This document shows positions 679 to 63,390 of a DNA stretch of 64,000 nt, in pieces (positions within the stretch are counted from its first letter, which is position 1; every line of letters starts with the position of its first letter). Under the pieces are notes generated by a model. That model was not told where the DNA came from. It was given only the letters and a program-made list of their open reading frames with translations, and ran no database searches. This DNA is from Aphrocallistes beatrix. Lineage: Eukaryota > Porifera > Hexactinellida > Sceptrulophora > Aphrocallistidae. A program made the translations under genes and the position numbers. The stretch lies in contig OY725497.1 in NCBI GenBank assembly GCA_963281255.1, forward strand, positions 2,914,001-2,978,000, read 5' to 3'.

Positions 679-3129
679 ATGGCGGATCGAGTTAGTTCGA
701 AGGATCTCCAAGAAAAGAGCTCGCTGCTCTTGAAATCTCTTGACCCTTGCCCAGATGAGAATGCAATAATGAGTCTGCCTAGATCCCTCCATGAAGCTTA
801 CAAACTGCACTTATCCCAAACAGGGCACCCCGCCGTGAAGATGCTCGGCAGCAGTATCCAAGCCCACCGCTCCTGTAACGAAGCCATCCTCTTCCTCTAC
901 GGAATGAGCGGAGCCGGAAAATCTTCGACTCTCAACCATCTGTTCGGAAGATATCTGGTCCCCACTTCCGATAGGGACTCTTGTACGGACTCGGTGACTG
1001 AGTGGGTGAGCAGCTTAACCAGCGAAGAGTGGCAGGTGTCAAATCTGGAGGTGGGCTTTGTCGACATGCCTGGCTGGGGGGATTCACAAGGGAAGGACGC
1101 AGCTAACTTTGCTCTCATCCAACATTTTCTTACCATTCACCCGATTCTAGGTTCCAAAATTCGCAAATTCTACCCCAACATTGTACTGCTGGTATTTAAC
1201 TCGAATGACAATCGAATGCTTGGCAGTGATGCGAATGCAATGAAAATGCTCCAAGCTCTCTCCAAGCTGAGCATCGTAGATAGGAAGCATCCGAATGTAG
1301 TGATCGTACTAACTCATGTGTGTTCGCATCCAGCTTCTGATTTCGTGGCTAAGCTCCAAGAGCTGAGTGGCATCTACCAGACCCTGTCCCGCTCGTGTCT
1401 GGGTGTGAACCCTCCTGTCGTGTGGCTAGAGAACCACTCAGGCTACCCGTTGCAAAGAAGCGGAGATTGGACACTCTTGCATGATGGGACAGCTCAGCCT
1501 GTGAACTTGTACGAGGCGATGAGGACTCTGATGGTAGATTCAAGAGACGAACTAGGGAAAGAAGCTCTCCGCCTCTACTTCCAAAATCGAGCAAGTAATC
1601 CTCCCAAGGAAAAACTCAGGGTCAACTCGAACAATTTAACTTCCAGATTGCATTCAAACTTAGTGAAACAGTGGCTTGAGGAAATGCAGAAAGGAATCAA
1701 ACACATCACGATGAACGAAGTAAACTCACTTCTGTTTAGATTCGTCCAGGAGAATAAATCATTCAGACTAGACAAGGATGACATTTCAGGATTGTTGATC
1801 GCTCTGCAGGATGCGGGGATTCAAGAATGTTCAGACCTAAACTCTCTTTCGATGCTCGAGATTGAGAATCTCCTCAAACCATTTCTCCTCTCACCGATTG
1901 AGATGATTCTATTAATGGAATGCTTCGAAATTAAAAGTCCCGATCTCTCAAAATCTCTGTTTGCAATTGGAAGAGGCTACAACACAGAGAAAGGAGAAAT
2001 TTCTCCTCGATCCATTTTTGATTGGACCCATAATTCAGTATTTGATCCATTCTTTTGTCAGCACTTGTCTCAAGCTGTTAGTGTTATTCCACTGAATGGG
2101 AAGCAACTTACATTTGGTGCGATTGAGGACTACTCCGCCATTCAGCAATTACAAGTTGCTATCGATCACATCAGTAACTGTTTGTTTCACAACACTCTGC
2201 AGGAGTCACGACTTTTGACAGTTGAAATGCTTGAACGGAAACTTAAAGAATTGTCTCAATATTTGTTTAGAATTGAGATTAGCATTGTTTCAGTTAAGTT
2301 AAACTTTGAGTTTGTCAGATTTTCCTCTGAATTTTGTGCAGCTGTCAGATCTCTCGCCGTGGACTCAATCAGTGATGAGACACAGATTTCTCCTGACTTC
2401 TCTCGATTTTTCAGAGAGTTCGGGCACTTTGTACTGCTGCAAGCTAATGGCGGGGGATTGATAGAAGGTCGGCACACCCTTACTAAAGAGGAAATCGCAG
2501 ACATACACAAGATTCGCGCAATTAACATGGCAGTAGAGTTATACTTCGATCTGATTCAAGAAGGATATAAGTGGAGAGACTTGACAGAAGATTTGAAGAC
2601 AGAAGACATTTCTTTGCTACAGAAGGTAGACGCATCCCCTCTCACCTGGTTAGCAGGCGACCCCAGGTGCACATGCCAATATATGTCAGAGCTGAGTGAG
2701 GAAATGTATTCTAAGTGGATGTCCTCTCTCAAGAATTCCTTCATTCTATTTGAGTCCACTTCCTGTTTCGCACCCATCTACCTGCTAGCACAGCGCATTG
2801 ATCCGGCTGTAGGCGATGCAGTCAAGAGAGCATTCGAACTCTTGTTTCCAAACGGACAGAAAATGTTCAATGAACACTTGCTGCCAATGGATTGTATAGG
2901 TACTGGATTCGAGCAGAAAGAGAAGTGCAAGCTTGGAAGTCCGTCTATCTCCCGGCCTGTCCCAGAATCCTTGAGGAGATTTAAGCTAAGGAGTCACAAC
3001 AAGCATGAAACGAGTTATTCGTCCGATTTGCCAGCAGAAACAGCAGCAGCAGGCACCTGCAATGAGGTCCACTCAGAATTTGACACAAGAGAGAAGATTA
3101 CACTTCGTGATATGCCTTCTTTTAATTAA
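679..3129 (+). CDS. AIG1/septin-like P-loop GTPase with a long uncharacterised C-terminus
   Basis: Single-exon protein of 816 residues. The G1 P-loop GMSGAGKSS lies at about residues 75-83, the G3 motif DMPG at 129-132 followed by GWGDSQGKD, and a G4-like strand ending in LTHV near 211-214, where the usual TKxD aspartate is not obvious. This order and the DxPG motif fit the TRAFAC GTPases related to AIG1/GIMAP, Toc34 and septins, which bind GTP and often assemble on membranes. Roughly residues 290-816 match no domain I recognise: they look mostly helical, with no transmembrane segment and a basic, Ser-rich tail. The start is taken at the ATG that sits directly after CTCCTTCAG, a good splice acceptor. 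The GTPase fold is confident; the function is unknown. Confidence 0.8.
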   Translation: MADRVSSKDLQEKSSLLLKSLDPCPDENAIMSLPRSLHEAYKLHLSQTGHPAVKMLGSSIQAHRSCNEAILFLYGMSGAGKSSTLNHLFGRYLVPTSDRDSCTDSVTEWVSSLTSEEWQVSNLEVGFVDMPGWGDSQGKDAANFALIQHFLTIHPILGSKIRKFYPNIVLLVFNSNDNRMLGSDANAMKMLQALSKLSIVDRKHPNVVIVLTHVCSHPASDFVAKLQELSGIYQTLSRSCLGVNPPVVWLENHSGYPLQRSGDWTLLHDGTAQPVNLYEAMRTLMVDSRDELGKEALRLYFQNRASNPPKEKLRVNSNNLTSRLHSNLVKQWLEEMQKGIKHITMNEVNSLLFRFVQENKSFRLDKDDISGLLIALQDAGIQECSDLNSLSMLEIENLLKPFLLSPIEMILLMECFEIKSPDLSKSLFAIGRGYNTEKGEISPRSIFDWTHNSVFDPFFCQHLSQAVSVIPLNGKQLTFGAIEDYSAIQQLQVAIDHISNCLFHNTLQESRLLTVEMLERKLKELSQYLFRIEISIVSVKLNFEFVRFSSEFCAAVRSLAVDSISDETQISPDFSRFFREFGHFVLLQANGGGLIEGRHTLTKEEIADIHKIRAINMAVELYFDLIQEGYKWRDLTEDLKTEDISLLQKVDASPLTWLAGDPRCTCQYMSELSEEMYSKWMSSLKNSFILFESTSCFAPIYLLAQRIDPAVGDAVKRAFELLFPNGQKMFNEHLLPMDCIGTGFEQKEKCKLGSPSISRPVPESLRRFKLRSHNKHETSYSSDLPAETAAAGTCNEVHSEFDTREKITLRDMPSFN

Positions 3130-3586
3130 CGAAATGACCCATCTCTAATGGATAAATATTTTTTCGGCAATCTTCCAATAGGATTTTCGATTTTATTATT
3201 TTTATTTGTTGATGAAATGTTTGCCAAGATACCTAATTTGATCAGGGGCGGTCACATTAGTTATTCACGACATGGGGGCATCATTTACGCACCAAATCAA
3301 GGGTGTAGGCAACAGAAAGTTCATTAAGGAACAATTTATGGTATCCCGTTACTTAATCCAGTCTTTCTCAAACTGTGGTGTGCGAGGTGGAGGCACTGCT
3401 TCTTACGAAATGCGAATTCGCTATTTCAGATTTGACTAGGGTTGTTTTATTCGATCCATCTTGTATGATTCTCGAAAAATAACCAAAATTAGTCACTGCG
3501 GTCGATAATTAATTATTTTATTTACGAATAGGGTGACTGTCATCTCAGACTTGACGTCAGGACAGCTCTACTCATACGCTACTCGA
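3130..3586. other. Intergenic, GTPase to RTCA
   Basis: AT-rich with no coding signal. A splice-acceptor-like GAATAG at about 3528-3533 precedes the RTCA reading frame and could mark a 5'UTR splice or trans-splice site. Confidence 0.5.
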
Positions 3587-4693
3587 ATGGCAGCCAAGAG
3601 TGTAGTGACAGAAATAAACGGAAGTTTGATGGAAGGCGGTGGGCAGATTTTGCGCAATTCTGTCTCCCTCGCTTGCATTTGTGGCATTGCTTTAAGAGTT
3701 GTGAATATTCGCGGTGGGAGAACTCCCCCGGGCCTACAGAGGCAACATCTGACGGGGGTGGAACTAGCCAAGCGCATTTCATCAGGGCGCCTTGAAGGGG
3801 CGGAGTTAAAGTCTCAGGAGATAGTCCTGAGGCCGGGCCCCATCGTGGGCGGGGAATACTCTGCGGACGTGAAGAGTGCCGGGAGCGTGATGCTCCTGCT
3901 GCAGGTGGCGCTCCCGTGTCTGCTCTTCGGAGACACCATCGCACGTCTCAGCCTGAGAGGAGGAACCAATGCGAAGTCCGCCCCCCAGGTCGATCACACC
4001 ATTCTCGTTCTGTGCCCATTGATCCGTCTCTTCGGAGTCCGGTGTGACCTGCAGGTGGTGAGGAGGGGCTACTTCCCCAAGGGGGGCGGAGAGGTGAGGG
4101 TAGAGGTTGAGCCTGTCAAGGCGCTCAATTCCGTCTCACTTCTGGACATGGGGAAGGTGGTGGAGGTGAAAGGGATCGCGTACGTGGCGGGAAGATGTCC
4201 CAAGAAAGTGCTGCATGAAATGGCGGACTCCGCTGAGGCACTAATAAGCCGATCTCTCCCAGGAGTGAAGATGAGCATTGAGCGGTCCCAGAACCCTCAC
4301 GCCCCGGACACAGCCAGCGGCATGGTGCTCTGCGCCATCACGGACATGGGGTGCCACCTGGGGGGGTCCAGTCTGGGGAGCCAGAGCGAGCTGGGCGAGC
4401 TGACAGGGGAGAGGGCCGCTGAGGAGCTGCTCGAGGCCGTGGCGCTAGCCGTCTGCGTGGACAAGTGGGCACAAGACCAGGTCCTGATATTCATGGCGCT
4501 GGCGGGAGGGAAGTCTGTTGTGAGGTGTGGCCCTCTCACTCTGCACTCAGAGACGGCCATGTACATAGCGGACAGGCTCCTGGGAGTGAAGTTCCAGGTC
4601 ACCCCGGTAAACCCTGACAAAAAAGATTGTAAAAAGTATCCTTGTTTCATCCAGTGTGAAGGGATCGGGAAGAAGAATCCACATTTTAGTTAG
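3587..4693 (+). CDS. RTCA: RNA 3'-terminal phosphate cyclase
   Basis: Converts RNA 3'-phosphate ends to 2',3'-cyclic phosphates through an adenylylated histidine, in the nucleoplasm, and has been linked to RNA repair. The 368-residue product is close to the 366-residue vertebrate protein. It starts with the family hallmark NGSLMEGGGQILRNS, then GGRTPPGLQRQHLTG, LRGGTNAKSAPQVDHT and RGYFPKGGGEV. The catalytic histidine is in GPLTLHSET, about residue 320 from this start. The open frame extends 18 codons upstream to 3533, but family alignment favours the ATG at 3587. It is RTCA rather than the RCL1 paralogue because that histidine motif is kept. Single exon, unlike most animal orthologues. GC content is higher than in the flanks. 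Confidence 0.93.
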   Translation: MAAKSVVTEINGSLMEGGGQILRNSVSLACICGIALRVVNIRGGRTPPGLQRQHLTGVELAKRISSGRLEGAELKSQEIVLRPGPIVGGEYSADVKSAGSVMLLLQVALPCLLFGDTIARLSLRGGTNAKSAPQVDHTILVLCPLIRLFGVRCDLQVVRRGYFPKGGGEVRVEVEPVKALNSVSLLDMGKVVEVKGIAYVAGRCPKKVLHEMADSAEALISRSLPGVKMSIERSQNPHAPDTASGMVLCAITDMGCHLGGSSLGSQSELGELTGERAAEELLEAVALAVCVDKWAQDQVLIFMALAGGKSVVRCGPLTLHSETAMYIADRLLGVKFQVTPVNPDKKDCKKYPCFIQCEGIGKKNPHFS

Positions 4694-5174: not shown

Positions 5175-6401
5175 ATGTCCGAACAAGTTCAGATCTTGCT
5201 AAAGAACAAGAATGGAGACTACCCAATCCCTCCAACCTCCCTCTCAACCTCTGTTTCCATATCCAGAGATAAACTCAGCCAGACAATCCTCGCTCTCTTC
5301 GGAGAACATAACGTATCTCCCCAACCACTCTTAGAATTTGATTTTCTGATTAATGAGCGGCTGCTAGATTCCAGTTTACAGGATCTAATCGAGTCATCTG
5401 GGATCAGCACAGAGCAGCAAATAACTGTCGAATATTTCGAACGGAAACCACCTCCTTCCAAGCCTCACATTCTACCACATCCCGACTGGGTGTCCTCCGT
5501 TCGGATAGCTGATTCGCTCGTTCTGTCCGGTTCGTATGACGGGACCGCGAGAGCATGGGACCTCTCTACCTACTCTCTCCTCTCCGAGCACGCCTGTCAC
5601 AAGGAGCCAGTGAGTAGCGTGCTATGGCTGCCACAGTCTGACGGCACCAACCTCGTAGCAACGGCGTCACACGATGGGAGTGTCCGCTTTTGGGAAGAGT
5701 TCAGAGCGGAAAGACCATCCCGCTGCCTGGCGAGAGGATTCCATTCCCAACCGGTCACCTGCTTGGCTGCTAATCCCGCCAACACACGCGTGTGCTCTGG
5801 CTCCTGGGACCGTTCAGTTAAGGTGTGGCCGGTGGGGCCGGGAGTAGGTAGCGGGGATGATGCTACGTCAGGCGGCAATTCTGAACCACCGCCTCTCTCT
5901 CCGCTGGCCTCACTGGAAGGACACAGTGACTGCGTGTCCTCGTGCGCCTGGAGTGGGCAGGAGAAAGTTCTCTCTTGCTCCTGGGACCACAGCATCTCGA
6001 TCTGGGATGTGGACACCTGTCAGTGCATCCGGACTCTGTCCGGGAACAGAGCCATGCTAGCTGTTTCTGAGAACGCACACAGCGGACTGATAGCGACGGG
6101 CGGCAGTGATAATCACATCCGAGTTTGGAACACCAGCGACGAAGAGCCGACGCTCATTCGATTGGTGCTGAGAGGCCACTCGGGCTGGGTCTGCTCCGTA
6201 GCTTGGTCTCAGGAGACTGAGCACCATCTGGTCTCCGGGTCCTACGATGGGAGTATAAAACACTGGGACACCCGCAACCCCAAGGCCCCGCTCTACACGG
6301 TCGGAGCGCACAAGAAGAAGCTGCTGTGTCTGGACTGGAGGGACGGAGAGAGAGTGGTTAGTGGCGGGGAGGATGGCAACCTCGTTGTTTCTCAGTTATA
6401 G
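5175..6401 (+). CDS. WDR12: Ribosome biogenesis protein WDR12 (Ytm1 family)
   Basis: WDR12 is the WD-repeat member of the PeBoW complex (PES1-BOP1-WDR12) that matures 28S/5.8S rRNA and the 60S subunit in the nucleolus. The 408-residue product (human 423) has an N-terminal NLE/ubiquitin-like region (about 5-95) with EFDFLINERLL, which contacts the Rea1/Midasin ATPase in yeast. Seven WD repeats follow from about residue 100; clear blades include SGSYDGTARAWDLS, SGSWDRSVKVWPVG, SCSWDHSISIWDVD, TGGSDNHIRVWNTS and SGSYDGSIKHWDTRNP. The insert between blades 3 and 4 is Gly/Ser/Asp-rich, as in other WDR12 proteins. Notchless (NLE1) also has an NLE domain but has eight blades and a different linker. 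Single exon. The ATG directly abuts an acceptor-like CAG. Confidence 0.93.
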   Translation: MSEQVQILLKNKNGDYPIPPTSLSTSVSISRDKLSQTILALFGEHNVSPQPLLEFDFLINERLLDSSLQDLIESSGISTEQQITVEYFERKPPPSKPHILPHPDWVSSVRIADSLVLSGSYDGTARAWDLSTYSLLSEHACHKEPVSSVLWLPQSDGTNLVATASHDGSVRFWEEFRAERPSRCLARGFHSQPVTCLAANPANTRVCSGSWDRSVKVWPVGPGVGSGDDATSGGNSEPPPLSPLASLEGHSDCVSSCAWSGQEKVLSCSWDHSISIWDVDTCQCIRTLSGNRAMLAVSENAHSGLIATGGSDNHIRVWNTSDEEPTLIRLVLRGHSGWVCSVAWSQETEHHLVSGSYDGSIKHWDTRNPKAPLYTVGAHKKKLLCLDWRDGERVVSGGEDGNLVVSQL

Positions 6402-7380: not shown

Positions 7381-9186
7381 ATGGCAGGCAAGGAGAAACT
7401 GACTCGAATAGCAGTGGTCAGTAACGACCGCTGTAAGCCGAAGAGATGTCGTCAGGAATGTCGTAAAGGGTGTCCCGTCAACAAAACTGGTAAGCAGTGC
7501 ATCGATGTGACGGCGGAGAGCAAGATCGCTTACATCTCTGAAATCCTTTGCATCGGCTGTGGAATTTGTCCGAAAAAGTGTCCGTTTGATGCTATCCAGA
7601 TCATCAATCTCCCCTCCAACCTGGAGAAGGACACAACGCACCGCTACAGCGCCAACTCCTTCAAACTCCACCGCTTGCCCATGCCCCGCCCGGGGCAGGT
7701 GTTGGGACTCGTGGGGACGAACGGGATCGGAAAGTCCACAGCCCTCAAGATCCTGGCCGGCAAGCTGAAGCCGAACCTCGGGAAGTGGGACCAGCCGCCG
7801 GATTGGCGCGACATCCTGATCCACTTCCGGGGGTCCGAGCTCCAGAGCTACTTCATGCGCGTGCTGGAGGACAAGGTGAAGGCGGTCATCAAGCCCCAGT
7901 CCGTGGACCAGATCCCCAAGGCCGTGAAGGGCACGGTCCAGCAGCTGCTGGATCGGAAGGACGAGAAGAAGGAGCAGGAGCGCTACGTCCAGATGTTCGA
8001 GCTGGAGAAGATCCGGGACCGGGACATCTCGGTGCTGTCGGGCGGGGAGCTGCAGAGGTTCGCCTGCGCGCTTTCCTGTCTGCATCAGGCGGACGTGTAC
8101 ATGTTCGACGAGCCGTCCTCCTTCCTGGACGTGAAGCAGCGCCTGAACGCCGCCCAGGCCATCCGCAACCTGCTCTGCCCCGAGAACTACGTGGTCGTGG
8201 TGGAGCACGACCTGAGCGTGCTGGACTACCTCTCCGACTACATCTGCTGTCTGTACGGCGTCCCCGGGGTGTACGGGGTGGTGACGCTCCCCTCCGGCGT
8301 GCGAGAGGGGATCAACATCTTCCTAGACGGGTTCATCCCCACGGAGAACCTGCGCTTCAGACCCACCAGCCTCGTGTTCAAGGTCGCGGAGACGGCGGAG
8401 CTGGAAGAGGTGAAGCGAATCCGCCGCTACGCCTACCCCGCCATGGAGAAGCGGATCGAGGACTTCCGTCTGGTGGTGCAGCAGGGCGAGTTCACCGACT
8501 CCGAGATCATCGTCCTGCTCGGGGAGAACGGGACTGGGAAGACCACGTTCATTCGGATCCTGGCCGGCCTGACGCCCCCCGAGGGTGGGATCGAGGTGCC
8601 GCAGCTGAACGTGAGCTACAAACCGCAGAAGATCTCTCCCTCCTACGACGGCAGCGTGCAACAGCTCCTGCACGGCAAGATCCGGGACGCCTACATCCAC
8701 CCGCAGTTCATCAGTGACGTCATCAAGCCGCTGAACCTCGAGTCGCTCTACGACCAGTCAGTGAAGCACCTGTCCGGGGGAGAGCTGCAGCGGCTAGCCA
8801 TCACCCTCTGCCTAGGCAGGCCTGCGGACCTCTACCTCATCGACGAGCCGTCCGCCTACCTGGACTCAGAGCAGCGGCTGGTCGCGTCCAAGGTCATCAA
8901 GCGGTTCATCCTCCACGCGAAGAAGACCGCCTTCGTGGTGGAGCACGACTTCATAATGGCCACCTACCTGGCCGACCGGGTGGTTGTGTTCGGAGGTGTT
9001 CCATCCGTGGACACGGTGGCCACCTGCCCGCAGATCCTACTCACCGGCATCAACCAGTTCCTCAAGTCGCTGCAGATCACATTCCGACGCGACCCCTTCA
9101 ACCACCGCCCTCGCATCAACAAGCTCCACTCGGTGAAGGACGCCGAGCAGAAAGCCAGTGGGAACTACTTCTTCATCGACTCCTAG
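7381..9186 (+). CDS. ABCE1: Ribosome-recycling ATPase ABCE1 (RLI1)
   Basis: Splits terminated or stalled 80S ribosomes in the cytosol with eRF1/Pelota and also works in initiation and 40S export. The 601-residue product (human 599) is complete. The N-terminal iron-sulfur domain has cysteines at about 18, 23, 27, 31, 40, 57, 60, 63 and 67 (including [15 protein letters not shown]). ABC domain 1 has Walker [10 protein letters not shown] (112-120), signature LSGGELQR (219-226) and DEPSSFLD (243-250). ABC domain 2 has GENGTGKTT (381-389), LSGGELQR (464-471) and DEPSAYLD (488-495). All catalytic motifs are intact. The gene is one exon with very GC-rich third codon positions, much higher than its surroundings, which creates a long spurious antisense frame (7354-8208). 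Strong codon bias fits high expression. The ATG directly follows an acceptor-like CAG. Confidence 0.98.
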
Positions 9187-9836: not shown

Positions 9837-12800
9837 ATGGGTCAGTCAGAGAGTTCAGAAGCTGCCGGGAAAGAGAGCTCCATTTCTGATTTGGTGTCGC
9901 AGCTGTCCACGCTCGAAGTGGCGGCTGTGAGTGAGGCGTTCAAGGAGTTGCACTCCCGTGCCGGCACCGGGGGACACGTTGTGAACTTGGAGGAGTTCAG
10001 CCACTACTTCAAGCTGCCCCTGCTCTTGGGAGAGAGGCTGTTCTTCGCGCTGGACTGGAAGCAGACCGGCTCAATCGACTTCGATGAGTTCATATACGGC
10101 ATTGCCATGCTGTTACACGGCACTTTCCACGATAAGTGCCAGCTCCTCTTCTCCATGTTTAACATATCGGGGGGCGCAGGCATTGATAGACAGGAGCTCA
10201 GCACCATGCTCTCCATCATCCTCTCCTCCACACAGCTCGTGCTCAAAGGCTGCGGACAAGTGCAGGTATTATGGATTTCGAGAAAATCTAAGTCGATAGG
10301 AAAAATCAGAAAAGTGACCGATAGCGACATAGTATATCGCGTATTTTAAAACACATATTTTGATATACTACACCCGATTTATCGATGTCATCCTCTCTGC
10401 TGACTGAGCTGAGGAGTTAACTGTTGCTGTCTCACTCAGGACTCTGGCATTCTGACTGAAGGAGATATCTCGGACATCGTAGCCAGGATCGTGCAGCAGG
10501 CGTTCCTTGATTGCGACGTGAGCAGAACCAACAAGCTGTCTCCGACTGAGTTTGAGATGTGGTTAGATAAGAACCCTGAGCTAGTGGAACACCTCATCAA
10601 GTGGACACTGCCCACTACCCCACAGCTGCTGCTCAAGCTCGGAGGCTGTGAGTGAGGGCCTAGCCTCTGTCTTCCTTACCTCCATTTATTCCGTCCTGTG
10701 TCCAGCTGAAGCCCTGACGGAGGACGAACGAGCCGTGGTGGCTTCGCAGGCCTCAGGCTTCAGGGACGAATCCCTACTCCCGGCGTCCGACAGCAGCAGC
10801 AGCAGCGTCTCAGACTCCCCTCACAAGACGGCCCCCACCCTCCCTCCTCCGGATGCTCCAGTGTCTTCCCTGACGCCACACCGCAGAGAGACCACTTCGG
10901 AGCTAGAGGAGTTGGACGCGATGGACACAATCCCCGACTCAATCCCGGACAGCTCAGCTCAGGGGGCGGACTCTCTCTCTCCTCACGGCTCCTGCTCCGA
11001 CGACGACAGCTCTCAGACCGGCATCCGCTTGATGAAGCACCTGTGTCCTCACTTCCTCCTATCCCCGGATGAGGGCAGCATCTACTCCACTCTGTGGATA
11101 CCAGGTGTCGTCACCAGGGAGGCCATGCAGCAGGTACACTTATGTATGCGCTTATGAGTCAGTGGCGGTTAGGAATGGAATAGTCAGCTAGCATCGAACT
11201 CGTCCATCGAGCTAGAGAGTAAGTCCGTACTGCTCTGTAGAAAAAGTACATCAACCAGCACCCCATCCCTCAGGAGCTGACTGCGCACGAGTCGATAGCC
11301 CCGCACAAACTAGAAGCTCGCCTGACTGATTTCGACATTCGAGTCAGCCACCAGCCTCGCCTCTCTCTCTCCGAGGTGGAGATCTCCACAGAGGGCCTGG
11401 ACAAGCTGATGGAGGTGGGGAACTACATTGACGCGCTGCACCTGACTCGAGAGCTCATCCTGCAGACCCGCTCCATCAGCTCGCAGCAGCAGAACGTAGA
11501 GTACTCCCCGCTCATCCTGCAGATCTGGCTGGCTCGCTTCTCCCTCATGCTCAGGATGGGGCTATACAAGGAGATGGAAGAGGAGCTGGAGGGACTCGCT
11601 GGCTCCAACTTTGATAGACCTGACATGTATTTCGAGTTCTATCCAGACAGGTATTATTACCTCCGAGTAGTAAGTCCATATTTCCTTGTGAACTTTTATT
11701 GATCCAAATATGGACTTAAGTATATTATTTTTGTGATATTATCAGCACAATATATTATTCTGATTTAAAAACTGAATTGCATCAGCTTATTTCCACTATA
11801 TAAATACGCAATGTGAATTGATCTAGAAATGTTGCTAACTCGTTTTCCATACAAATACGGGGTATTTACCTTAAATATAATTTAACTAGTGCTAATTCAG
11901 GTTAAATAAGACAGTCACCCTCTCTTTTCTTCCACTCATGCTTGGGACTATGTGATGGCATCTACATCCTAATACAATACAGCTGACTCTGCTTAATCGG
12001 GACACTTTGGTCCCGGATATTTTGTCCCGATTAAGCGGAGTTCCTAATTAACCAATGAAATTTAGTATTAGTTTATATGTATGTATGGGAATCATTCAGT
12101 TCCTGGAGACTTGTCCCGATTAAGCGGAGTTGACTGTATAAGAATATAATGTGATTATCTGTTAGGTATTCTGGAAAATGCGGTTGGATGGTCCCATTCG
12201 GCTTAGTCCTGCTGCACGCCTCGTTGCCTCAGATGATGGGGCAGTGCCGGCGCTCTCTCGACAGGCTGTACTACCTGCGGTACACTGCTCAGAGGGTGAA
12301 GCAGCACATTCTCAGTTTGGAGGTGTCACAGCTTGCGAAGTCTCAAGGCACTCGTCTCTGGTGCAAGCGGATCAACAGGATCATGCTGTCCATCGGCAAT
12401 ACGTTCATGGCGATGAAAGATTTCTACAACGCACGACTCATTTTCACAAACATGGCTAAAGAGCAGCCCGAAATGAAAGGAGACTGTGCACTGCTACTCT
12501 GCAAGGTATGTAGGAATGATCCATTTATATCGTAACGCAGTGGACTTAAGAGTCTAGAAAGCAGCCTTCGAGAACTCCCGACCTAGCTAGGGACACAACT
12601 AGGTCCATTAAAGAGAGAATGTTCCCACCCTGGTTTAGTGACCACCCAGATTGATCAGCTTGTGATACAAAAATATAAGGCGCCCACCTGTCTAGGATAT
12701 ATCCACCAGCCTTTCAGAACCTAGTTGTGCCATGACATAGAATATTAACCACGAACACTAACTGAGAGAAAAGGAGTGATTGAGGTTAAGGAGAGTCCAC

Positions 12801-13553
12801 AACGGTAGGAGCACGTCACGTGTATTGGAGAGTTTGTAATCCACAGCAGAGGTAATGTGTAGTCAGGGTGTCAAATTTTGTTTATTGTTTTTCTTATGGG
12901 TAAATGTGAAAATTGTCTTAGTTATTCAAACTTAATTACTTGACTTTATTTACTTAATTTTACTACCTACCACACTGCCTATTTCTGCAGAAATATGGCT
13001 ATTCTAGTGTATAATATTCCTAATTATTTCCCTTTTGAATTCTAAATGTGGATATAATTATGCATTTCATAGATGCTCACATGCTTAGCTACGAACCCAT
13101 CCTTGATAATGAGATACGGATCTCTCCTGCTAGGTGCACATCCTGACCGGAAGCAACGCTGCTGCCAGGAAGGAGATCGAGGTCGCAGGCGCCGCTTTAG
13201 AATGCGCAGACCAACTCCCCCGCTTCCTTCAAGTGCGGGGCCTCCTGGAGGTGGCGGAGAAAAAGTACTCTCAGGCGGAGCAGACGTTCAAGAGAGTTTT
13301 GGAGATACACCCCTCCCCCACTGCGATAAACAACATCGGCTTCTGCCTCTACTACCAGACGCATGTGGACGAAGCCTTGGAGTGGTGGCAGACACGCCTC
13401 TACTCGGACGCCCCGGAGTCCATCCATCCATCTCACCTTGCTAACATTCGCAGCATCCTAGGTGCGCTCCCTGGCTCTGGCAGACAAGTCAAGACCAACA
13501 TTCTTGATGTCCTTGCCAAGCGGTCCCCTGAGTTAATTCAGCACATAGTTTGA
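9837..13553 (+). CDS. TRAPPC12: EF-hand domain joined to TRAPPC12 (TPR protein of TRAPP III), six exons
   Basis: Exons by eye: 9837-10265, 10440-10647, 10706-11133, 11241-11650, 12166-12505, 13134-13553. All introns are GT-AG and phases agree, giving 744 residues (human TRAPPC12 735). Exons 3-6 are TRAPPC12: IPGVVTREAMQQ, then the TPR region from about residue 400 with DRPDMYFEFYPDR, WMVPFGLVLLHA and AINNIGFCLYY. The family tethers vesicles in ER-Golgi and autophagy traffic (TRAPP III). Exons 1-2 instead encode an EF-hand-like module: MGQSES at the N-terminus resembles an N-myristoylation signal, and degenerate loops lie at about 73-84, 109-120 and 169-180. An acidic Ser/Pro/Asp stretch (about 215-330) links the halves. 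If exon 2 is read through its donor, the first half stops as a separate 217-residue or so protein (LKLGGCE then TGA). Intron 4 contains a pogo-like MITE. TRAPPC12 identity is confident; the fusion is inferred. Confidence 0.85.
11978..12138. mobile_element. pogo/Tigger-like MITE in TRAPPC12 intron 4
   Basis: Terminal inverted repeats CAGCTGACTCTGCTTAATCG and, reversed, CAGTCAACTCCGCTTAATCG, flanked by TA on both sides (the TA target duplication of Tc1/mariner/pogo elements). No coding capacity. The element at 49014-49214 has similar ends. Confidence 0.75.
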
Positions 13554-61270: not shown

Positions 61271-62066
61271 TTAACGCATTACAAGATCACCTCGTTTACT
61301 AAGCTTGGCCAATCTGTCTTTCTGATCTCTCTGCTTGTCCGTCCCCTTCTGGGTGATATGAACTAGACCTGCGCTTTTCAATTCCCAACTCTTCGCATAC
61401 TTCGCGTACCATCGTATCATCCACATTTTGACCTTGGTCAGAGAGGAGAACTTGGGGGTAGCCATGCCGCAATACCCATCCATCCATAAAAGCTTTTACC
61501 ACGCTCTTCGCATCTTGACTCCGCAACGGCGAATAAATCGACCATAATCAGAAAGTAACGAAAGCCCCCCGCCGCCCAAGGTAGAGTAGCAATATCGAAC
61601 GACACCATTGCCCGAGGACGCTGACACTCATTAATAGGGATCAAGGGCTGCTTCCCACTCGAAGATCGCTTATTCCTAAGGCACACTAAACAACTGGAAA
61701 ACCTCTCAACATATTTCACCATCCCTCTCCAAAAGAAACGAGGTTTGAGCAACTCGTATGTCCGATGCACTCCAGGATGAGATTGTCCGTGCACGAGATC
61801 CAAAGTCCTTTCTCTAAGAGAACGAGGGACAAACAGCGCACCGAAACGACACAATAATCTATCTCTCATTATCCAACCATTATGCTTCCTCAATTGCCCT
61901 TCTCCTACTTGACCTTTCTCTCTCAGTTGCCTAATCGCGTCCGACGACTCACAATCTTTGGCCTGTTCCTCTCTAACCCTTTCCCTAAATCCGTCTCTAT
62001 CTCCTGTCAAGGTGTAAACATGCCGTTCAAAATGCTCGGCCTCATCGTTCACTTCAGAATCGAACA
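61271..62066 (-). pseudogene. Ty3/gypsy integrase core, broken
   Basis: The zinc-binding HHCC region reads HPGVHRTYELLKPRFFWRGM...CLVCLRNK. The core follows in overlapping frames: SFDIATLPWA...YFLIMVDLFA, then LSDQGQNVDDTMVREVCEEL and SYHPEGDGQAER with the catalytic glutamate position. At least two frame changes occur between 61440 and 61530. Confidence 0.75.
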
Positions 62067-62640
62067 CTACCGAACTCCTGCTAAGGTAGTCTGCTGCACA
62101 ATTGCTGCTCCCTCGTCTCTATTCAATTCTATAGTGTAATGATTCCAGCTCTGGCAACCACCTTGAGAACTTCCCCGTGGATCTCTTTGTCCACGCATCC
62201 AGAAAAGAGGATTGTGATCCGACAAAAAGACAACATCAACAGCCCATACCAGAACATCTCTTAGGTGTTGTAAATGCTCACCAAAACTTTGCGAATACGT
62301 TAGGGTATCATCGATGTATGCTTGGCTATTACTAGCGCTTCCTAGGGCTTCATCAACCACACGTTGGTACGACGAAGGGGCATTGCACAGACAAAATGCC
62401 ATCACACAAGAACTGTCCTCTCGGGGTAAGAAAGGCTGTTTTCTCTCGATCAATTTCAGCTATGGGGATGCTCCAATATACACTTGCTCCGTCAAGCTTT
62501 AGTGACTCTCTTTTAGTTTGTTCAAGATATCCCTCACTTCTGGAATAGAATAACTGTCCTTCTTCGTGCAGTTATTCAACGCGCGATAATCAATGGCAAA
62601 CCTTTGGTTCCATCTTTCTTGGTCACGAGAATAACTCTAC
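62067..62640 (-). pseudogene. Ty3/gypsy reverse transcriptase and RNase H, frameshifted
   Basis: Pieces in different frames: RFAIDYRALNNCTKKDSYSIP (near 62550-62615), CNAPSSYQRVVDEAL and the catalytic YIDD (normally YxDD) near 62310, then an RNase H-end motif, SDHNPLFWM, near 62210. Most of RNase H between YIDD and SDHNPL appears deleted. Confidence 0.7.
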
Positions 62641-63390
62641 TCACCCAGGGAGAATTCGACGGTCTAACAATCCCGTTTTCGAGCATTTCCTGAATTTGAG
62701 TATTAATCTCCTTTTCAATCTGAGGCGACACCCTATATTCTTAGCCCTCACTGGACTAGTATTACCCGTCACAATCGAAAGTTCTCTTAAGTGAGTTACC
62801 GATGGTTTTTTCGGATTAGGTGCAAAAACGTCCTCGAATTCCGTTAGTAAAGTTCCTAGCTTTTCCTTTTGTTGACAATACAGCTCTGAATTAATATAAT
62901 ATATATCTTCTTTACCATCCTCAGCCATATTCAACACTTGGTTTACTGCTTCGGCTCGTGCTAATGGCAAACCACCCTGAACACTTGCAACTGTTTCTAG
63001 CCAAAATTGACCCATGCGTACCTTCCTTCTCCCCCAATCGATCTCAAAAGAATCGAACCGCAGTAAGAACTCCCTCCCCAAAATCACTGTAGGTTCAGGA
63101 CTATATAGAATCGTAAACGTATGTTCGCGCACTCGCCCATTTCCTAGATCAATTTCCACCTCTACAAAACCTAACGTATCGATTGGACTAGCGCTTACCC
63201 CTCGGATTATTCCAGCAGGTTTGCATCTAAGTCCTAAACTATCGATTGTCTTCTCATCCATAACTGACGGTTGAGCTCCGGTGTCAATCATAGCTCTGAT
63301 AGGCTTTCCATTCACCCAAATAGCAATTACTACCCCTCCTATATTCCCGTCGTTGGTATTAGTAAGGGATGCATTGGAAGGCAGCTCCAC
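62641..63390 (-). pseudogene. Ty3/gypsy protease and start of reverse transcriptase
   Basis: AMIDTGAQPSVMDEKTI carries the aspartic-protease DTG active site, and VILGREFLLRFD is the usual second conserved segment (hhLGxxFL). It is in the same frame as the gag fragment. The frame is lost where the reverse transcriptase begins (about 62750), with more frameshifts after that. Confidence 0.75.

Follow-up and report, generated by a model that had tools for sequence, protein, structure and literature searches.

A predicted EF-hand–TRAPPC12 fusion gene in the glass sponge Aphrocallistes beatrix

The glass sponge Aphrocallistes beatrix probably encodes a TRAPPC12 protein that carries an EF-hand head at its N-terminus. 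Within a 64,000-nucleotide stretch of contig OY725497.1 (positions 2,914,001 to 2,978,000; hereafter the window, whose numbering is used throughout), six plus-strand exons (9837–13553), joined from the sequence across five GT–AG introns of 174, 58, 107, 515 and 628 nt in order, form a single frame of 744 residues. We favour the reading that this is one gene, the product of which would consist of TRAPPC12 with an EF-hand head, a linker and a solenoid. The preliminary description of this locus had proposed that an EF-hand module is joined to TRAPPC12, and as a gene model, six exons in one 744-aa frame, this proposal was borne out. Exon 1 (9837..10265; 143 aa, codon score 109 bits) starts with MGQSESS and encodes EF-hands 1-3; intron 1 (10266..10439, 174 nt; CAG/gtatta ... 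ctcactcag) separates it from exon 2 (10440..10647), which encodes EF-hand 4 followed by the C-terminal helix of the EF-hand unit. The disputed junction is formed by intron 2 (10648..10705, 58 nt), and is followed by exon 3 (10706..11133), which encodes a Ser/Asp-rich linker (residues 213-355) with its first in-frame ATG at 10921. An in-frame TGA is found 12 bases 5' of the ATG at 9837, and an AATAAA lies 15 nt 3' of the TGA stop of exon 6. Intron 4 harbours a repeat (11977-12126) that is 89% identical to a stretch of another contig (C12; L013 7237-7388) and is likely a mobile element within the gene. A search of the window against Rfam gave no matches, and an NCBIfam search gave nothing useful.

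The EF-hand-like N-terminus noted earlier for exons 1 and 2 was recovered by domain search. Residues 1-212 matched Pfam EF-hand_6 (E 7.5e-6, 25.7 bits, cut-off 25), with EF-hand_1 and EF-hand_7 also matching the head below the Pfam cut-off. The best PDB chain was CBL4 (E 5.1e-10), aligned over residues 20-195, and the best 60 of 99 matches also included KChIP1 (E 2.6e-8), NADPH oxidase 5, calsenilin, CBL2 and hippocalcin. Exons 1–2 are therefore predicted to encode a protein of the CBL/KChIP/NCS type with all four of its EF-hands, the unit being complete at the junction because its fourth loop ends at residue 180. When the loops were checked against the canonical position rules, none of the four matched at every checked position. 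The EF1 loop is degenerate; EF2 (DWKQTGSIDFDE) has one miss, a Lys at position 3; EF3 (NISGGAGIDRQE) is degenerate, failing at positions 1, 5 and 6; and EF4 (DVSRTNKLSPTE) has one miss, an Asn at position 6. The Glu at position 12 is kept in all four. Because of these deviations, EF4 may bind Ca2+, binding by EF2 is doubtful and binding by EF1 or EF3 unlikely, and the label of calcium sensor suits the head weakly. The earlier suggestion of a calcium-targeted subunit is likewise weak: EF2 and EF4 are each one position short of the rules, EF1 and EF3 are degenerate, and no loop is fully canonical.

The same description had called the N-terminus myristoylation-type. N-myristoylation follows the rule MGxxx[S/T], which the MGQSES start fits, and the head is probably N-myristoylated. 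A second membrane signal is absent from the first 20 residues, which contain neither a basic patch (one basic residue) nor a cysteine, so the hold on the membrane would be weak from this motif alone. We also considered a damaged mEAK7/TLDC gene, of which the head would be the N-terminus. This was rejected, as a separate mEAK7-like gene exists and no significant similarity was found. The genome holds three TLD loci, none of them within the EF-hand–TRAPPC12 gene, and the separate TLD gene elsewhere we take to be mEAK7.

The body of the protein (residues 213-744) aligned with the core of human TRAPPC12 at 27% identity over 365 aa (125 bits), against a maximum of 19.2 bits in 20 shuffles. On this similarity exons 4–6 are assigned to TRAPPC12. 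Exon 4 (11241..11650) and exon 5 (12166..12505) would encode the solenoid, the latter containing GWMVPFG, which presumably corresponds to GSMVPFS of human TRAPPC12; exon 6 (13134..13553) encodes a TPR-like C-terminus (Pfam TPR_2, 2.1e-6) and ends at a TGA stop. Pfam matches on the body were chiefly TPR repeats, and a PDB sequence search gave 18 matches, made up of designed TPR chains, IFT88 and one unrelated enzyme, with no TRAPP chain among them; in the fly TRAPPIII structure, TRAPPC12 was left unmodelled (PMC8204870). The agreement in length between the fused protein (744) and human TRAPPC12 (735) had been offered as support for the fusion. We do not accept this argument, because Drosophila TRAPPC12 and TRAPPC13 together amount to ~100 kDa (PMC8204870), so that the sponge TRAPPC12 would be of normal size even if it lacked the head. 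Followed upstream, the TRAPPC12 frame meets no stop until a TAG at 10582; its first in-frame ATG is at 10921, in agreement with the earlier statement that none occurs before about 10918; this ATG is residue 285 of the fusion, and translation from it would yield a 460-aa TRAPPC12.

The evidence for one gene turns on the junction and on exon 3. The donor of exon 2 (GGCT/GTGAGT) and the acceptor of exon 3 (TGTCCAG/CTGAAG) join the TRAPPC12 frame in frame, as had been proposed, and the transcript would be spliced at 10647/10706. In the local area the donor ranks first of 16 and the acceptor first of 26, and the pair has the top score among 96 in-frame, stop-free donor/acceptor pairs; since that many pairings occur locally, an in-frame junction is not strong by itself. 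The donor outscores three of the four other donors of the gene, while a score as high is reached by 4.7% of the window's GT sites, and the exonic AG present at all four other introns is absent from it. A survey of short introns over 301,525 bases returned 17 GT-AG candidates vs 12 to 24 in five dinucleotide controls, and did not recover the 58- and 107-nt introns of the gene itself. One by-eye reading suggests that the TRAPPC8 gene has a 75-nt intron. The figures reported for Oopsacas minuta, 1.59 introns per gene with an average of 341 bp, do not decide on an intron of 58 nt.

Exon 3 looks coding upstream of the ATG at 10921, and it is its composition and its codon score against the genome background that carry this evidence. 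The GC content of this part is 65%; the 215 nt 5' of the start codon range from 0.27 to 0.46 in all six cases examined, namely those of five other genes and ATG 9837, and none of 1757 overlapping non-CDS tiles reaches 0.65 (maximum 0.567). Its codon score vs the genome background is 57.4 bits. Among 1455 non-coding tiles, 123 had an open frame, the best of which scored 40.1 bits, and none reached 57 bits. Against a background of its own composition, the stretch scores -0.06 per codon in the best of six frames, compared with +0.12 to +0.35 for the listed exons and -0.04 for the best frame of intron 3. As this is no better than intron 3, most of the codon evidence reflects composition. The open frame alone is weak evidence, because 549 of 2000 dinucleotide shuffles of the 213 nt before the ATG were also stop-free.

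Upstream on the same strand lie a GTPase-like gene (679-3129; single frame, 816 aa), with a match to MMR_HSR1 that passes the cut-off and matches to AIG1 and MACPF that fall short of theirs, and three further single open frames: RTCA (3533-4693), a gene with Pfam WD40 repeats (5175-6401), presumably WDR12, and ABCE1 (7381-9186; Pfam ABC_tran and Fer4_RLI). In the GTPase-like, WDR12-like and ABCE1 genes a CAG lies directly 5' of the ATG, resembling a splice acceptor or a spliced-leader site. At the far end of the window, retropepsin-like and integrase-like frames recognised by eye (61438-63390, minus strand) are probably a Gypsy-type retroelement. The GC content of the window is 39.5%. Several conserved genes in the genome are single open frames, and Aphrocallistes vastus likewise has many single-exon genes in a genome of 80 Mb (PMC10282587).

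The alternative that survives best, although we hold it unlikely, is that of two tandem genes, possibly an operon. The EF-hand gene would end at the TGA at 10655 and TRAPPC12 would have its own mRNA, produced by spliced-leader trans-splicing at 10705/10706 or from an internal promoter, with translation of 460 aa from ATG 10921. The finished 214-aa EF-hand frame together with the trans-splicing of glass sponges makes such an arrangement possible: the EF-hand unit is complete, stops naturally just past the donor and is near the NCS/CBL chains in length, and 4% of the long reads from A. vastus, also a glass sponge, are reported to carry a trans-spliced leader (PMC10282587). In addition, the acceptor at 10706 is strong, and ATG 10921 lies in a good start context (GCGATGG, a strong one), but the part of exon 3 preceding that ATG is coding-like vs the genome background and contains an ATG in another frame, at 10853. 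Of the six start codons examined in the window, three (679, 5175 and 7381) have CAG abutting the ATG, like trans-splice acceptors, with the caveat that among eight other loci one (L009) has CAG/ATG, and its frame is open further upstream. A point against two genes is the spacing, the acceptor lying 50 nt beyond the EF-hand stop. From that stop to the next ATG the spacer would be 265 nt and GC-rich; elsewhere in the window, same-strand neighbours are separated by four gaps of about 400 to 980 nt, AT-rich where measured. The nearest AATAAA/ATTAAA is 1,952 nt past the EF-hand stop, which is a weak point against two genes, because two of seven other genes (RTCA and ABCE1) also have no signal within 1 kb. 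A short TRAPPC12 would be normal, given the combined ~100 kDa for Drosophila TRAPPC12 and TRAPPC13 (PMC8204870), and 332 automatic models in the A. vastus annotation resembled false fusions of neighbours (PMC10282587).

Next in order, and improbable in our judgement, is one locus with two products, a spliced 744-aa fusion and an intron-retaining EF-hand protein. Retention of intron 2, which is short and has a moderate donor, leads to the TGA at 10653-10655 and a 214-aa protein, appending merely C-E-stop to the complete EF-hand protein, but the retained mRNA would have a very long 3' end with more introns, and could be degraded. That the halves are not true genomic neighbours and were brought together by an assembly or annotation artefact is very remote, as the locus lies within a 4.87 Mb contig and both GC and third-position GC are alike in the exons of the two halves.

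The rest of the genome (100.5 Mb, 28 contigs) was searched for further copies and for partners; only the best candidates were scored and copy counts are lower bounds. No second copy of the EF-hand head was found among eight matches, the next of which has 29% identity and is presumably calaxin-like, and no second intact TRAPPC12 was found among the best candidates. A decayed fragment of TRAPPC12 exon 4 lies on contig C12 near 360300 (L013 4300-4548); it aligns over 268 bp at 77% DNA identity, has internal stops and is apparently a duplication relic. The TRAPPC11 domain occurs at one place (E 3.7e-37), the TRAPPC8 domain at one place as two adjacent matches (best E 1.9e-40), and the TRAPPC13 domain as a single weak match (E 6e-6, 32.3 bits, cut-off 25.3) with a TAG inside it. 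The presence of these domains therefore makes a full TRAPPIII set plausible. Relatives of the fusion were sought in GTDB contigs, where one scan gave 15 pattern matches, none confirmed, and in phage records, where there were no matches; the fusion may be confined to this species or shared across its lineage. The same genome gave eight matches to integrin beta. The Wnt domain was not found in a whole-genome search in which no positive control responded; Oopsacas minuta is described as having no Wnt (PMC10280926), and the pattern of integrin beta with no Wnt match fits a glass sponge.

In comparison with known systems, the predicted protein resembles TRAPPC12 (TTC15/TRAMM) in its alpha-solenoid/TPR core and in the Ser-rich acidic stretch preceding it, such a stretch also being present in the human N-terminus, and differs from it by the additional MG-starting four-EF-hand head of 212 aa. 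The head shares the EF-hand layout and the conserved EF2-EF3 core with CBL4, KChIP1, hippocalcin and calaxin of the NCS/CBL group, as well as the MG start typical of that group, whereas its loops are mostly degenerate and it is continuous with another protein. mEAK7 (TLDC1) is a myristoylated EF-hand-type protein with an MG start and an EF-hand-like N-terminus; unlike mEAK7, the sponge fusion has no TLDC domain. NCS-1/frequenin, which is myristoylated and has EF-hands, serves a membrane enzyme of the Golgi, PI4K-beta, although there the partners are separate and in the proposed sponge fusion they would be one chain. No such fused protein appeared in the listed titles and abstract openings of papers that mention TRAPPC12 or TRAPP together with EF-hands, calcium, or gene fusion and sponges; the two records in which TRAPPC12 and EF-hand co-occurred were, by title, unrelated: expression data from mouse colon and a study of a seizure drug. 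In a word search, the main text of a TRAPP review contained none of the terms EF-hand, calcium and myristoyl.

Taking the one-gene reading as preferred, we infer how the fusion arose, is spliced, myristoylated and affected by Ca2+, where it is placed and what it does. Most likely, TRAPPC12 became joined to a small EF-hand gene that lay directly upstream of it in the same orientation, so that the 58-nt intron would now excise the old EF-hand stop codon and the former TRAPPC12 start region would be read through. The head (residues 1-212) would lead, through a linker rich in Ser and Asp (about 213-330) that is probably flexible, into the TRAPPC12 solenoid. In Drosophila TRAPPIII, the vertex of the TRAPPC8 and TRAPPC11 arms holds TRAPPC12 and TRAPPC13, and contact of the vertices, these two subunits included, with the membrane is an assumption that its authors term hypothetical (PMC8204870). 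By extension from the fly, the head would sit at this TRAPPC12/TRAPPC13 vertex and could serve there as a built-in lipid anchor or as a partner-docking module, with a dependence on Ca2+ that would at most be weak, via EF4, and with Rab1 exchange in the TRAPPIII core presumably unchanged. A stronger version, in which glass-sponge TRAPPC12 is lipid-anchored and Ca2+-tunable and a fused EF-hand myristoyl switch gates Rab1 activation by TRAPPIII at the membrane, we regard as quite improbable.

If the two units are separate tandem genes, the locus would represent ordinary close packing in a compact genome. If they are fused, the TRAPPC12 machinery could gain a membrane or calcium handle of its own, which bears on how metazoan TRAPPIII is seated on membranes. 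A myristoylated EF-hand–TRAPPC12 fusion would, if true, be independent evolutionary evidence for a vertex-to-membrane orientation, and this natural fusion would be a ready-made tool for testing the orientation of TRAPPIII.
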